Below, piece after piece: positions 1,508 to 6,213 of a stretch of DNA of 64,000 bases. The number at the start of each line of letters is the position of its first letter. The stretch's first letter is position 1. The notes beneath the pieces were generated by a model. That model was not told the DNA's origin and did not search any database. It saw only the letters and a list, made by a program, of their open reading frames with translations. Both the position numbers and the translations under genes were made by a program. Origin of the DNA: Actinomycetales bacterium (GTDB lineage Bacteria > Actinomycetota > Actinomycetes > Actinomycetales > Microbacteriaceae); contig JAFKEN010000006.1 in the NCBI GenBank assembly GCA_017308515.1, forward strand, positions 354,479-418,478, read 5' to 3'.

Positions 1508-1597
1508 GGTACCGTGTCCGAGCGGCCGAAGGAGCATGTCTCGAAAACATGTGATGGTTCACGCCATCCGTGGGTTCAAATCCCACCGGTACCGCCA
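1508..1597 (+). tRNA. tRNA-Ser (anticodon CGA), CCA encoded
   Basis: The acceptor stem GGTACCG (1508-1514) pairs with CGGTACC, the discriminator G follows, and CCA is encoded at 1595-1597. The anticodon stem CATGT/ACATG encloses the loop CTCGAAA, giving anticodon CGA, which reads UCG. A long variable arm follows (TGATGG...CCATC), as expected for class II tRNA-Ser. The T arm is GTGGG-TTCAAAT-CCCAC. It is directly followed by a strong terminator and by the left edge of the ubiquitin-like operon block, a common place for island insertion. Confidence 0.95.
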
Positions 1598-1873: not shown

Positions 1874-2425
1874 CTAAGCACGAGTCGCCCAAGAGATGGG
1901 CGCAAGAGGTATATACAGCGCGGCGACGAGGGGCGCCGCGCAGGTTCGTCGGAGCCATGCCTCGATGCGGAGCGCATGGTCGTCGAAGCCGTTGCGGGCT
2001 TCGAGGACGAGGCGGTAAGTGAGTGCGAGGAACCAGAGCAAGAGCGCGACTCCGCCGATGATCATTGCGGCGAGCACCCACCCGCATTCGACCGCGAGCG
2101 CAATCCCGAGTAGCGCCGTGGCGGGCGCTCGGGTCCCTTGCCCCGATCGAGGTTGGTGCCCGGAGAACGTGAGTCCGATGAGCTCGAGCGCGATGCCGGC
2201 GAGGCCGAGGATGCTGTGGTGGGACAGCCATACATGCGAGTCCCGCAGCGCAGCGGCGGCGACCGTGGGTGTTCCGGCCGAGTCGCCGAGGTCAGCGAGA
2301 GCTTGAAGCGCGGAACTGCCGGTCCAGATACCGCCAAGGGTGGCGAGTGCGGCAACGGATGCGCCAAGGCGCCACGGGAGATCCCAGCTTAGTCGGAGGA
2401 CTGATATCAGCTGCCCGAGGTCCAT
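1874..2425 (-). CDS. Multi-pass membrane protein, last gene of the Ubl operon
   Basis: 183 residues with about four hydrophobic segments (near residues 17-42, 68-90, 103-143 and 162-182). Two short loops carry charged residues, including NGFDDHALRIEAWLRR before the last segment. No domain is recognised. It starts at ATG 2425, 21 nt after the stop of the SDH-type protease gene on the same strand, so it is very probably co-transcribed with the E1/E2/ubiquitin-like genes. A membrane effector, an anchor or a protease substrate are all conceivable; nothing in the sequence decides between them. Codon use is less GC-biased than in neighbouring core genes. Confidence 0.6.
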   Translation of the reverse strand: MDLGQLISVLRLSWDLPWRLGASVAALATLGGIWTGSSALQALADLGDSAGTPTVAAAALRDSHVWLSHHSILGLAGIALELIGLTFSGHQPRSGQGTRAPATALLGIALAVECGWVLAAMIIGGVALLLWFLALTYRLVLEARNGFDDHALRIEAWLRRTCAAPLVAALYIPLAPISWATRA

Positions 2426-2446: not shown

Positions 2447-3400
2447 TTAGGTGATTGGAAGGGAGGCCCAGGAGCTTTCGAACAGCTTCGCGTTGCCCTC
2501 GGTCGCCCACAGCTGGAGGCAGTAAAGACGCCAATACTTCTCCCAAAGGGGAGCGTCGGGTTCGAGGTAGGTGACGTTGAGGCCGAGGCCGGTGGCGGCC
2601 TGGAAGGAGATCATCTGACCGTGGGAGTGCCACCGTTGCGTGTTGCTGAGTTCGTCGGCCACCTCTTTGGCGTCGTCGTGGTCCTTGATCATCGCCTGGT
2701 TCAGCAGCGCAGCCGCGATGGAACGGGACCGTTTGGTGATCCGCTCGAGTTTGCGGACGGTGGCCGGTTCCATCTTCGCCAGCATGAGCTGGGCGACCGG
2801 ATCGCCGGGATCCTTGCGCAGGTTGTCTGCGTGGAGGTGGAACGCGTCGAGGTAGCTTTGCGCGGAGAGGGTCTGGACGTTGCCGTTGGTGTCGGGCAGC
2901 TCGACCTGGGGGTCGATGACGCCGAGCTCCGACGAGTCGGACATGACGATGGCATTAGCACCGAGGGCGATGAGGGTCGCGGCGCTCTTCGCGTAGTCCG
3001 GGACAATTACCCGGACGGTGGCAGTGCCGGCGCGGTTGCGGATGAGCGTGATGAGCTTCTCGGACGCATCGATGTCACCTCCAGGCGAGTGCAGCAGGAG
3101 ATCGATCGGCGTGGCCGGGGCGACGTTGTGGAGAAGGTCAACCATCGCGACGGTGTCTGTGCGGTCAATCTGCCGGTGAGCTGACACGTAGCAGAGCAGC
3201 GTCGCGCCAGATGTGTCTTCGATCTCCTTGATCAGACTTTGCCTTGCGTATCTCGCGGCGTGCATCGCCTCGTACAGGGGCGTCTTCCTGGGTTGCCGCG
3301 GCTGGGCTGGCGTCGTCGTCGGGGGAGTGGTAGGTGAGGGGGACGATGGGACGGCCGACTCGGAGTCCTCGTCGGGGGTCGCCTCGGGGGTGGCGGTCAT
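2447..3400 (-). CDS. SDH/ClpP-fold serine protease (serine dehydrogenase proteinase family)
   Basis: 317 residues from ATG 3400; a GTG one codon upstream (3403) is also possible. After a 40-residue Pro/Thr/Ser-rich N-terminal stretch comes a crotonase/ClpP-like fold. LLLHSPGGDID (about 102-111) is the oxyanion-type loop. VPDYAKSAATLIALGA (about 133-148) carries the probable nucleophile Ser139. MSDSSELGVIDPQ follows, as in the SDH_sah family. There is no signal peptide, so the enzyme is probably cytosolic. Its ATG overlaps the TGA of the DUF6527-like gene by one base (TGATG), implying translational coupling. In an operon with E1, E2 and a ubiquitin-like protein it may mature the modifier, remove it, or degrade tagged protein. 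The family call is firm; the role is inferred. Confidence 0.8.
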   Translation of the reverse strand: MTATPEATPDEDSESAVPSSPSPTTPPTTTPAQPRQPRKTPLYEAMHAARYARQSLIKEIEDTSGATLLCYVSAHRQIDRTDTVAMVDLLHNVAPATPIDLLLHSPGGDIDASEKLITLIRNRAGTATVRVIVPDYAKSAATLIALGANAIVMSDSSELGVIDPQVELPDTNGNVQTLSAQSYLDAFHLHADNLRKDPGDPVAQLMLAKMEPATVRKLERITKRSRSIAAALLNQAMIKDHDDAKEVADELSNTQRWHSHGQMISFQAATGLGLNVTYLEPDAPLWEKYWRLYCLQLWATEGNAKLFESSWASLPIT

Positions 3401-3732
3401 CACTTGTTGGTCCGTTCGATCCAGCGCACACGTCCTTTGCGCACAAAGTAGTGGCAGCGTCCGACCGAGCTTTCCTCGTCGACGCTGGGCTGAATTGTAA
3501 GCGGGATCGCGGAGGCGATGCGCCAGCTAGGCCAGCGGCCTAGATCGAGGTTGAGGACCACACGGTGGCCGCGGCGGCAGGGGCATTCGAAGACGAGCCA
3601 CTTGTCGAAGTCAATTCCGCCGACGAGGATCGCATGGCGCTGCGGGAGCCGTTCGGGGACGTCGGCGACGGAACGGAGGCGGGAGGTGATCTTCCATCGG
3701 CCCCAGGCGCGCAGGCGGGTCAGGATGCCCAA
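3400..3732 (-). CDS. DUF6527-like small metal-site protein
   Basis: 110 residues. The conserved core is FECPCRRGHRVVLNLDL (C50, C52, H56) and, 35 residues on, GRCHYFVRKGRVRW (C93, H94). The pattern Cys-x-Cys...Cys-His with a basic aromatic C terminus matches my recollection of DUF6527 and suggests a bound metal. The start is TTG 3732, which overlaps the 3' end of the JAB-E1 gene by 13 nt; no in-frame ATG or GTG precedes the conserved part. The end couples to the protease start. I recall the family occurring beside ThiF/E1-type genes, but its biochemical role is unknown to me. It could be an adaptor or target-recognition factor of the conjugation system. Confidence 0.65.
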   Translation of the reverse strand: MGILTRLRAWGRWKITSRLRSVADVPERLPQRHAILVGGIDFDKWLVFECPCRRGHRVVLNLDLGRWPSWRIASAIPLTIQPSVDEESSVGRCHYFVRKGRVRWIERTNK

Positions 3733-5087
3733 TTCAGCCCCAGAAACATGTCGCGGTCGGTCCCGACCGGTGAGCGAGTCGGGTCGCAGTAGTGCCCGAG
3801 CCGCGGGGTCTCGATGTTTGTGCGGACGGCGCGGTCGTGCACGAGCAAGAGCAGCTCGGTGGGGGTGGGGGCTTCTCCGTAGCCGACGAGGCGCTCGATG
3901 AGCTCGCTGACGGCGGTGGCCGCAACCAGAGTCGTGAAGGCGACGACGGCCGGCTCGGCGCCGGGAAGGGCGGGTGCATAGCCCTCCGTCTCAAGGCGTT
4001 GTTGGTCGTCGATGCTGCGGACCTCGGCGTCCGCGAGGGCGAGATCGACGCGGTCACGGCAGATGAGACAGGCGGCACCCGGGTAGACGGTGGTGGCTCG
4101 GCCGAAGATGCCGGAGATGGTGTCGGAACTGTCGGCATCGAGCCGGACGCCGCAGTCGATCACGGGGATCAGGTGGTAATACGGCAGGCGGGACAGGCGC
4201 ACCCTACCCGCGTTGTCGTCGGTGCAGCCGAACACGATGTCGGCCTCGAGGAGGCGCCGGGCGACTGTCTCGTTGACGATGGCCCCAGGGATCCGGGTGG
4301 CGGTGACCCCGTCCGCGATCCGCTCGAGATGGTCGCCGAGCACGTCGACCTTCGCACGGCCGACGTCGCGAGGGGTGGAGCCGTAAACGCGGGTGGTGTT
4401 GGCCAGGCTCAGCGTGTCCGGGTCGATGAGGATGAGCTTGCGTACGCCTAGTCGAGTGAGCTGTTCGGCAACCGCGGAGCCGGTCCCGCCGACGCCGACG
4501 ACCGCGATGGTGAGCCCCGCGAGGGTTGTCTGGATCTGCTCGCCGAGCGCACGGATGTTGCGGTCGAACAGGTCGAAGTCGATCGGGGTGGTGACGTCGG
4601 AGGCGGGCCTGAAGGACCAGTGCTCGCCGATGGTCGCGAGGGTCGTGATGGGTTCTTCCGTGGCTCCGGTGATGGAGCCCGTGAAGGTAAGTGCGCCGTG
4701 GTCGTGGGCGACGATCAGGTAGCCGTAATGGCCCGTCTCGGTGCGTTCGGCGAACAGCTCGCGCAGTTGAACGTTGACCTTGGCGTCGAAGTGGCTGGCG
4801 CGCGGGTCGGCGGAGTCGCCGGGGTGGCTGTGCACCCAGATGGCGAGGTGATGGCGGTCGCGGGCCGACTTGAGCGCGTGGACGTATCCGTCGGAGCTGA
4901 TCTCGAGCGCGCGGTCGGTGCGGGAGACGTAAGCGTCGTCGGGGACTGGGATCAACGCGGTACCGATGAGAGCGCCGGTGCCGTCCTCCGGCGATGCCAG
5001 AAGGACGGCACCCGTCTCGACGCGGTCGCGGGCCATCTCGAGTAACTCATCGTGGATTGCCTGGGGAAGGCGCAGGGTGACGGTCAC
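3720..5087 (-). CDS. JAB deubiquitinase - ThiF/E1 fusion enzyme
   Basis: 455 residues from GTG 5087, which overlaps the E2 stop as GTGA; a longer in-frame extension is antisense noise. Domain 1 (about 10-150) is a JAB/MPN isopeptidase: Glu25, then HSHP (H86, H88) and S98-x2-D101, the zinc-metalloprotease set with a loop two residues longer than usual. Domain 2 (about 170-455) is a ThiF/E1 adenylation fold: GVGGTGS at 198-204, LIDPDTLSLANTTR (D222, D224, R233), Lys246, and FGCTDDNAGR. A CLIC pair (C340, C343) and C434 may bind zinc. One chain could thus activate the modifier and also cleave its conjugates or mature it. I see no ATP-site residue obviously missing. Which Cys, if any, carries the modifier cannot be told by eye. 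Confidence 0.88.
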   Translation of the reverse strand: MTVTLRLPQAIHDELLEMARDRVETGAVLLASPEDGTGALIGTALIPVPDDAYVSRTDRALEISSDGYVHALKSARDRHHLAIWVHSHPGDSADPRASHFDAKVNVQLRELFAERTETGHYGYLIVAHDHGALTFTGSITGATEEPITTLATIGEHWSFRPASDVTTPIDFDLFDRNIRALGEQIQTTLAGLTIAVVGVGGTGSAVAEQLTRLGVRKLILIDPDTLSLANTTRVYGSTPRDVGRAKVDVLGDHLERIADGVTATRIPGAIVNETVARRLLEADIVFGCTDDNAGRVRLSRLPYYHLIPVIDCGVRLDADSSDTISGIFGRATTVYPGAACLICRDRVDLALADAEVRSIDDQQRLETEGYAPALPGAEPAVVAFTTLVAATAVSELIERLVGYGEAPTPTELLLLVHDRAVRTNIETPRLGHYCDPTRSPVGTDRDMFLGLNWAS

Positions 5088-5461
5088 GCAGCGGCCGTCA
5101 GTTCCGTCTTGAGGAGGCGGATGTAGCTCTCGAGCCCGTCGATCCCGGAGCGCCAGGCGCTGGGGTCGAGGTGACGTGACCAGCGCTGCCAGCTGCGCCC
5201 GTCGTGGGTCTCGATCTGCTGGGTGGCTTCGATTACACCGCGGCCCAGCGAGGTGAGGTGGGGGATGATCCACCACATGTCGGGCGGGGTGTCAGGGTAG
5301 CTGGCGGACAGTCGGAACAATATGTTCGCGGTCGGCGCGTTCAGCCCTGCGGGCAGCGGGAACTCGAGCAGCTCGACGCAGAGCATGCCACCGTCCTCGA
5401 ACACGCGGTGCGGGATGCCAGCGCGCTCGAGGTACTCCTCGTCGGCAGTCGGGAGTTTCAC
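5084..5461 (-). CDS. Prokaryotic E2/UBC-fold protein, no Cys at usual active site
   Basis: 125 residues from GTG 5461 (GTGA overlap with the ubiquitin-like gene). It matches the prokaryotic E2 family-E pattern: an N-terminal DEEYLERAGIPHRVFEDGG, FPLPAGLN, a SASYPDTPPDMWWIIPHL strand-loop resembling the YP...P segment of UBC folds, then HDGRSWQRWSRHL. The only cysteine is C28, in an early strand far from where E2 enzymes carry their thioester Cys. Candidate residues in the later conserved block are S90, S95, R96 and H97. The protein may use another nucleophile, or act as a scaffold or adaptor E2 variant. Fold assignment rests on motif order. Confidence 0.75.
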   Translation of the reverse strand: MKLPTADEEYLERAGIPHRVFEDGGMLCVELLEFPLPAGLNAPTANILFRLSASYPDTPPDMWWIIPHLTSLGRGVIEATQQIETHDGRSWQRWSRHLDPSAWRSGIDGLESYIRLLKTELTAAA

Positions 5462-5913
5462 TTACGGCTACCGGGGTTGATCCGGCCGGGCGCGGTGAAG
5501 AAGCGGGTGCCGTCATGCAGGCGCACGACGTCCTCGTCCTGAACCTTCACGTCACGGTGATCCGGCACGTCGCGCCAGAGGTCGCGGTCGGCAGGGACGT
5601 CAGGGCTCGGCAGGGTGCGGAGCTCCGCGCCGGTCATCCTGCGCTTGTAGACCTCGTACTCGACGCGGTCAATGCGGATGGTGATCGCGTCAATCTCGGT
5701 GAAGAAGCGCATGCCGTCGGTGATGTCGAGCGAGCCGGCGTCGTCGAGCAGCTCGTCCTGCTCGTCGAGGATGTCGAGCCAGATCTCCTTGCCGCGGGGA
5801 ACCGGCGGGTTGCGCAGCTCGCGCAGCTTCGCGACGGGTGTGACGCCCGGCTTTATCTCGTACGGGGCACCATCGATGTAGACGGTGACCTTGTTCTTCT
5901 TGGCCTCGGCCAT
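5458..5913 (-). CDS. Tandem ubiquitin-like (multiubiquitin) modifier protein
   Basis: 151 residues, start ATG 5913 with AAGGAG seven nt upstream; an upstream in-frame ATG at 5976 lies inside the promoter and operator and is rejected. Two beta-grasp repeats of about 65 residues occupy 8-72 and 76-140. Each ends in the same signature (DGMRFFTE and DGTRFFTA) and contains a DLWRDVP/EIWLDIL helix-turn. This fits the Multiubiquitin domain family. The C terminus is PGRINPGSRK, so the likely conjugated glycine (G148) is masked by three residues and would need proteolytic exposure, for which the JAB-E1 and SDH proteins are candidates. It is the first gene of the operon. Confidence 0.82.
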   Translation of the reverse strand: MAEAKKNKVTVYIDGAPYEIKPGVTPVAKLRELRNPPVPRGKEIWLDILDEQDELLDDAGSLDITDGMRFFTEIDAITIRIDRVEYEVYKRRMTGAELRTLPSPDVPADRDLWRDVPDHRDVKVQDEDVVRLHDGTRFFTAPGRINPGSRK

Positions 5914-5938: not shown

Positions 5939-5969
5939 GTGATACCGTGATACCACCATACCACGGTAT
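5939..5969. promoter_or_regulatory. Tandem 8-bp operator repeats
   Basis: Three units in exact 8-bp register: GTGATACC at 5939-5946, GTGATACC at 5947-5954, ACCATACC at 5955-5962, followed by the inverted half GGTAT at 5965-5969. An 8-bp arm pair ATACCGTG/CACGGTAT is also present. Ribbon-helix-helix repressors commonly bind such short-period repeats. The block lies between the -35 and -10 of the minus promoter and next to the divergent RHH gene, so autoregulation plus repression of the Ubl operon is the natural model. Confidence 0.7.
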
Positions 5970-5977: not shown

Positions 5978-5999
5978 CGACGCAGCGCGGTGGCACAAT
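5970..5999 (+). promoter_or_regulatory. Promoter of the RHH regulator gene
   Basis: A perfect TTGACA at 5970-5975, an 18-nt spacer and CACAAT at 5994-5999. ATG 6007 begins 7 nt after the -10, which predicts a leaderless mRNA. The -35 shares five bases with the opposing -35 of the Ubl operon. Confidence 0.65.
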
Positions 6000-6006
6000 G
6001 ACTACC

Positions 6007-6213
6007 ATGTCGGGGCAGAAAGCAATGACTATTCGCCTATCCGCCGAGCAGGCGGACCAGCTCGAGACCGTCGCTAGTGTCGAGAATCAGCCGGTCTCCG
6101 AGGTGATTCGAGCCGCTATCGCCAACCACATCGAATCCGTCAGCCAGGACGAGAGCTTCCAGGCGGGTCTGCGAGAGCGCATCGAGCGTGCACAGGGCAT
6201 GCTCCGCAAGTAG
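6007..6213 (+). CDS. Ribbon-helix-helix (CopG/Arc type) regulator
   Basis: 68 residues. AMTIRLSAEQADQLETVASVENQPVSEVIRAAIANHIESV is a typical RHH module: one beta strand (MTIRLS) that would contact DNA, then two helices split by NQPVSE. The C-terminal tail is helical and charged. ATG 6007 is favoured over ATG 5998 because the -10 hexamer ends 7 nt before it. No toxin gene follows (a hairpin and about 200 bp without a gene do), so it is more likely a dedicated repressor of the divergent ubiquitin-like operon than an antitoxin, although RHH antitoxins look alike. Confidence 0.78.
   Translation: MSGQKAMTIRLSAEQADQLETVASVENQPVSEVIRAAIANHIESVSQDESFQAGLRERIERAQGMLRK

Follow-up and report, generated by a model that had tools for sequence, protein, structure and literature searches.

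Iyer et al. 2006 described a bacterial operon type, 6e, that combines a polyUbl, an E2/RWD-like protein, a JAB-E1 fusion and a metal-binding protein, and noted that its E2-like domains lack a cysteine and are likely inactive (PMC1779556). The Bub (bacterial ubiquitination-like) system of Citrobacter, which comprises BubA, BubB and BubCD (PDB 9ea4, 9ea5, 9ea8, 9eae, 9eav and 9d59), follows the order Ubl-E2-JAB/E1-DUF6527, and a mechanistic paper on the Bub pathway (Ye et al. 2026) is cited in PMC13373217 and PMC12687455. The Bil (BilABCD) and Cap2 (CBASS) systems share the Ubl/E1/E2/JAB logic and a ThiF-fold E1 (Cap2, 7to3), and their E2s act through a catalytic Cys (Cys138 in BilB, PMC11354881). 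The locus analysed here lies in a window of 64,000 nt from an Actinomycetales bacterium (Microbacteriaceae; GCA_017308515.1, contig JAFKEN010000006.1, positions 354,479-418,478 of the forward strand).

On the minus strand of the window, running down from position 5913, we found adjacent genes for a multi-Ubl protein, an E2-like protein, a JAB+E1 fusion and a DUF6527 protein, the same order as in Citrobacter, followed by a ClpP-fold protease homologue and accompanied by a divergent ribbon-helix-helix (RHH) gene (Table 1). All four components of Iyer type 6e have a counterpart, including the E2-like domain without the catalytic Cys, and the E2-like protein is a component of a known Bub-type (Iyer type 6e) ubiquitin-like tagging operon. 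PADLOC and NCBIfam searches with it gave no specific system call. The locus differs from the Citrobacter system in several respects: its Ubl has two beta-grasp domains and an INPG end where the Citrobacter Ubl has three domains, its E2 is a separate gene whereas Ubl and E2 are fused in some Citrobacter and alphaproteobacterial loci, its E1 retains a CxxC, and it carries the fifth gene and the divergent RHH gene in place of regulators of the CapK/CapS type.

Table 1. Features of the Bub-type operon and its surroundings, in window positions.
Feature	Position	Strand	Evidence
tRNA-Ser (CGA) gene, beside the low-G+C block	1508-1597	+	
ClpP-fold (SDH/SppA-like) serine protease homologue, fifth operon gene	2447-3403	-	PF01972 (2.4e-17)
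DUF6527 protein, possibly zinc-binding; metal-binding 'Y' gene of Iyer type 6e	3400-3732	-	PF20137 (1.2e-16), conservation
JAB/JAMM + E1 (ThiF) fusion, BubCD homologue, 455 aa, GTG start at 5087	3720-5087	-	PF00899, PDB BubCD, conservation
E2/UBC-like protein (BubB homologue, Prok-E2_E), 125 aa	5084-5461	-	ORF, PF14462, PDB BubB, conservation
Ubiquitin-like modifier, two beta-grasp domains (Multi_ubiq, BubA-like)	5458-5913	-	PF14452, conserved tails, PDB BubA constructs
Palindrome ATACCGTG-N12-CACGGTAT, candidate operator between the RHH and Ubl genes	5942-5969	.	sequence
Ribbon-helix-helix (DUF6290/CopG) gene, probable regulator	5998-6213	+	PF19807, PF01402

The E2 gene begins with a GTG that overlaps the stop codon of the preceding Ubl gene, and the start codon of the E1 gene overlaps the E2 stop codon in turn. 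The E2 product matches Pfam Prok-E2_E with 107 bits against a curated cut-off of 25 (E=7e-31), and this match, together with 184 relatives among genome contigs, leads us to take the reading frame as a real gene. A sequence search also recovered Citrobacter BubB from the PDB (9eae_C, E=7e-9). The predicted structure (mean pLDDT 91.6) follows the order helix, beta-meander, hairpin, helix, and its top PDB match is this same BubB chain (TM 0.91, rmsd 1.3, 27% identity), with a QRWSRH motif in both proteins; eukaryotic E2s (UBE2L6, Ubc3 and 1zuo) and one UEV domain follow as much weaker matches, so the E2-like fold proposed in an earlier note on this DNA holds. The same note had described a single cysteine in an early strand and none at the conjugating position, and both points are borne out: the only Cys, C28 (codon 5378-5380), lies in strand 26-35 of the model of the E2 alone.

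The E2 shares with eukaryotic E2, UEV and RWD proteins the UBC-like helix and beta-meander, and differs from eukaryotic E2s in having neither a catalytic Cys nor an HPN and in carrying an additional hairpin. Residues 86-98 form the block HDGRSWQRWSRHL, in which the codons of Ser95 and His97 occupy positions 5177-5179 and 5171-5173, and this Ser-x-His follows the hairpin insertion and closes the final strand ahead of the C-terminal helix. An hhalign comparison with the canonical E2 UBE2D2 placed the YPxxPP motifs in register and spanned only residues 40-64, so the canonical Cys position cannot be fixed by sequence. We noted that the eight-residue spacing from Ser95 to Trp103 equals that from Cys85 to Trp93 in UBE2D2, and gave it no weight, since about one third of the relatives carry a 3-residue deletion that breaks the equality.

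Conservation was counted over 93 of the E2 relatives. Since the genome-contig search used the pattern YPxxxDM, the conservation of Y55-P56, D61 and M62 is partly a product of selection, whereas Ser95 and His97 lie outside the pattern, and members found by profile are free of its bias. Both Ser95 and His97 are present in all 93 relatives and in all 52 of a set below 70% identity; Trp103 is likewise found in 93/93, as are Tyr55 and Asp61, which fall within the search pattern. In divergent PF14462 members found with the Pfam profile, the neighbouring Trp and Arg are lost in places, but S-x-H is kept (WFSWH, RFSIH, LVSFH and FLSFH), and several of these proteins are Cys-free. The column of C28 holds Cys in 39 of the 93, with Gly in 29, Ala in 9 and Asn in 9, and 18 of the 93 E2s (8 of the 52) contain no Cys at all. 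No conserved Cys column exists in the 93 relatives where a canonical E2 would have its catalytic Cys after the central sheet, and no HPN-type motif is conserved before a nucleophile, the conserved block being (G)RxWQRWSRH. Judging from the C28 column and the Cys-free members, we conclude that the lack of a catalytic Cys characterises the whole E2 family and is no peculiarity of the window copy, which sets the family apart from the Cys-dependent E2s of Bil and Cap2.

The partner E1 matches ThiF (PF00899) at 3.5e-31 and BubCD in the PDB at 4e-27, and its fold search returned 9eav, 9eae and 9ea4 as well as Cap2 (7to3). It shares its architecture, the JAMM Asp and the cross-over Tyr with Citrobacter BubCD. 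Its JAMM residues (E24, H86, H88, S98 and D101) and its adenylation motif (G198-S204, N230, R233 and K246) are intact, and both the adenylation motifs and the full set of JAMM ligands show little or no variation across 93 relatives. A cross-over-loop Cys is absent from every one of the 93 E1 sequences compared; the column is Tyr in 91 and a gap in 2, and in the window it is Y370 (codon 3978-3980), which by chain numbering is Tyr370 of Citrobacter BubCD. Divergent loci also have Tyr at this position, except for one truncated hit. In an hhalign alignment the window segment EGYAPAL faces EGVCAAS of UBA5, in a fragment checked against the PDB, and places Tyr370 one residue before Cys250. Another candidate thioester carrier, the nearly invariant E1 cysteine C288 in GCTDD, was discarded, as it aligns with the SCVDN motif of UBA5 and not with Cys250. 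The title of PDB entry 9eav, BubCD(D104A/Y370F)-BubB-BubA(155-229), indicates that Tyr370 has been mutated experimentally together with the JAMM Asp; the Y370F mutation says that Tyr370 matters for the reaction, and by itself it is no proof of a covalent carrier.

The Ubl gene starts with an ATG at 5913 that is preceded by AAGGAG, and its product matches PF14452 in two stretches (E=1.9e-12). The predicted mature C terminus is INPG, with its Gly encoded at 5470-5472, and three further residues, SRK, form a tail behind it. Most stand-alone Ubls of the relatives end in FFTAPxxINPG plus a short tail, a second clade joins a TTEG Ubl and the E2 in one polypeptide, and the BubA constructs in the PDB stop at the Gly homologous to that of INPG. 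These tails are consistent with processing by the JAMM domain, a cut that would additionally set the E2 free in the fused clade.

Family membership, the loss of Cys from both E1 and E2, the invariance of Ser95/His97 and of Tyr370, and the intact motifs are observed. Oxyester transfer to Ser95 is the simplest reading of an adenylating E1, Cys-free chemistry sites in E1 and E2 and an invariant Ser-x-His, and we consider it probable, on this comparative evidence, that the Bub E2 here carries the modifier on Ser95, within an oxyester cascade that dispenses with cysteine. In the E1 fusion, the JAMM domain would cut the Ubl tail after its Gly, between INPG and SRK, and the ThiF domain would adenylate that Gly. 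The acyl group would then move onto Ser95 in oxyester linkage, helped by His97 acting as a base. It could arrive by way of an oxyester on Tyr370 of the E1 cross-over loop or come straight from the adenylate, in which case Tyr370 would act catalytically. A target amine would aminolyse the E2~Ubl oxyester, and the JAMM domain could later take the tag off. We infer this chemistry, the order of transfer and the target of the cascade.

The main rival, which we regard as unlikely, is a non-catalytic scaffold of RWD/UEV type, in which the E1 adenylate or a Tyr370 oxyester would react with the target directly while BubB binds E1 and substrate; direct transfer of this kind was one of the alternatives in the earlier note. 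Iyer et al. 2006 took the E2-like family as catalytically inactive and proposed an E2/RWD domain that binds the Ub moiety (PMC1779556), which counts against Ser95 as carrier, and the scaffold is also favoured by the near-invariant Tyr of the E1 loop, by a stable BubB-BubCD complex that contains no covalent Ubl (9eae) and by the weak RWD/UEV matches. The invariance of Ser95 could moreover be structural, and its motif follows the hairpin insertion and cannot be placed precisely on the canonical E2 active site by sequence. A scaffold, however, would not require an exposed, invariant Ser-x-His near the active-site end of the E2, kept even in very divergent members; an inactive RWD/UEV domain would be expected to have no conserved nucleophile, and the invariant Ser95 and His97 argue instead for an active domain.

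Other acceptors within the E2 are far less credible. If C28 or another Cys were the true acceptor in a rearranged active site, the protein would be an ordinary thioester E2, and Cys is indeed the commonest residue of the C28 column, also in the non-redundant set (30/52). Yet the Cys-free E2s have their operons intact, the column elsewhere holds Gly, Ala or Asn even in close actinobacterial relatives (Asn in L006, 77% identical), C28 sits in an early strand and the cross-over loop of the partner E1 contains no Cys. At the level of the family this option is refuted, and we give it very little credence. Ser90 (codon 5192-5194), which the earlier note had offered beside Ser95 as a nucleophile and which shares its strand, is the least credible of all, being Ser in only 20 of the 93 relatives, with Thr in 19, Val in 19 and Gln in 10. 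Conservation therefore effectively excludes C28 and Ser90, and of the pair originally proposed only Ser95 survives.

The Cys loss itself is not the novelty that the earlier note implied: it has been known since Iyer et al. 2006 (PMC1779556), related structures including BubB-E1 complexes have been solved and deposited in the PDB, and the pathway mechanism is published, where the question that note raised is most likely answered. Likewise, the point that thioesters are dispensable for ubiquitin-like conjugation, to which this E2 family speaks and which bears on what ancestral E1 and E2 enzymes needed, is already in print. The locus adds a broad conservation test, which favours Ser95/His97 in the E2 and Tyr370 in the E1.

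A fresher and possibly less known observation may be the operon subtype with an RHH regulator and a trailing ClpP-fold protease, found in roughly half of the loci; ClpP goes unmentioned in Iyer et al. 2006 (PMC1779556), and neither ClpP nor an RHH regulator comes up in PMC13373217. The RHH and protease genes occur together in 45 of 93 loci (RHH alone in 1, protease alone in 2) and in none of the 26 loci with fused Ubl-E2. Roughly half of the 93 loci have the RHH gene at this position, and the protease gene lies directly behind DUF6527 in 43. ATACC/GGTAT palindromes similar to that of the window are also present in three other loci (L019, L020 and L026). The protease homologue matches NF047768 at 2.3e-24, which is under the cut-off of that model, and Lys139-Ser140 is invariant in 47/47 sequences, making Ser140 the candidate nucleophile; an alignment with the 1510-N protease (E=0.0096) places Ser140 in a matching AxSAxT segment. 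In the neighbouring DUF6527 protein, C50, C93 and H94 are conserved. Iyer et al. 2006 called the link between the bacterial ubiquitin-like tag and proteolysis unclear (PMC1779556), and the actinobacterial subtype seen here, whose operon includes a ClpP-fold protease gene, could tie the two directly. One could imagine a distinct, self-contained tag-and-degrade module, in which a Cys-free Tyr-to-Ser oxyester relay tags proteins, the operon protease acts on tagged proteins or on the modifier, and an RHH repressor exerts control, a combination that we rate as decidedly improbable. Directly behind the protease gene lies a frame for a 183-aa probable membrane protein (1874-2425, minus strand) that matches nothing in Pfam or NCBIfam and lacks relatives in the 93 loci.

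The block from about 1.6 to 6.5 kb has a G+C content of 0.61-0.69 against 0.71-0.79 in the flanks, and since it also starts beside the tRNA-Ser gene, its composition and position suggest that it is probably a horizontally acquired genomic island; attachment-site repeats were looked for at the tRNA-Ser gene and none were found. Relatives of the E2 occur in 97 plasmid records and are rare on chromosomes, where 4 of the 396 genomes from the phylum have one. Viral contigs and phage records yielded zero relatives, and we therefore abandoned the idea of a phage origin. One Microbacterium plasmid copy (L006, 5353-8485) encodes an E2 77-78% identical to that of the window, together with an E1 frame that covers only the 3′ half and a short protease frame, and this operon copy is probably decayed. 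A Rhodoferax genome (G399, loci L049 and L095) carries two E2 copies, of which one stands alone and the other is joined to the Ubl.
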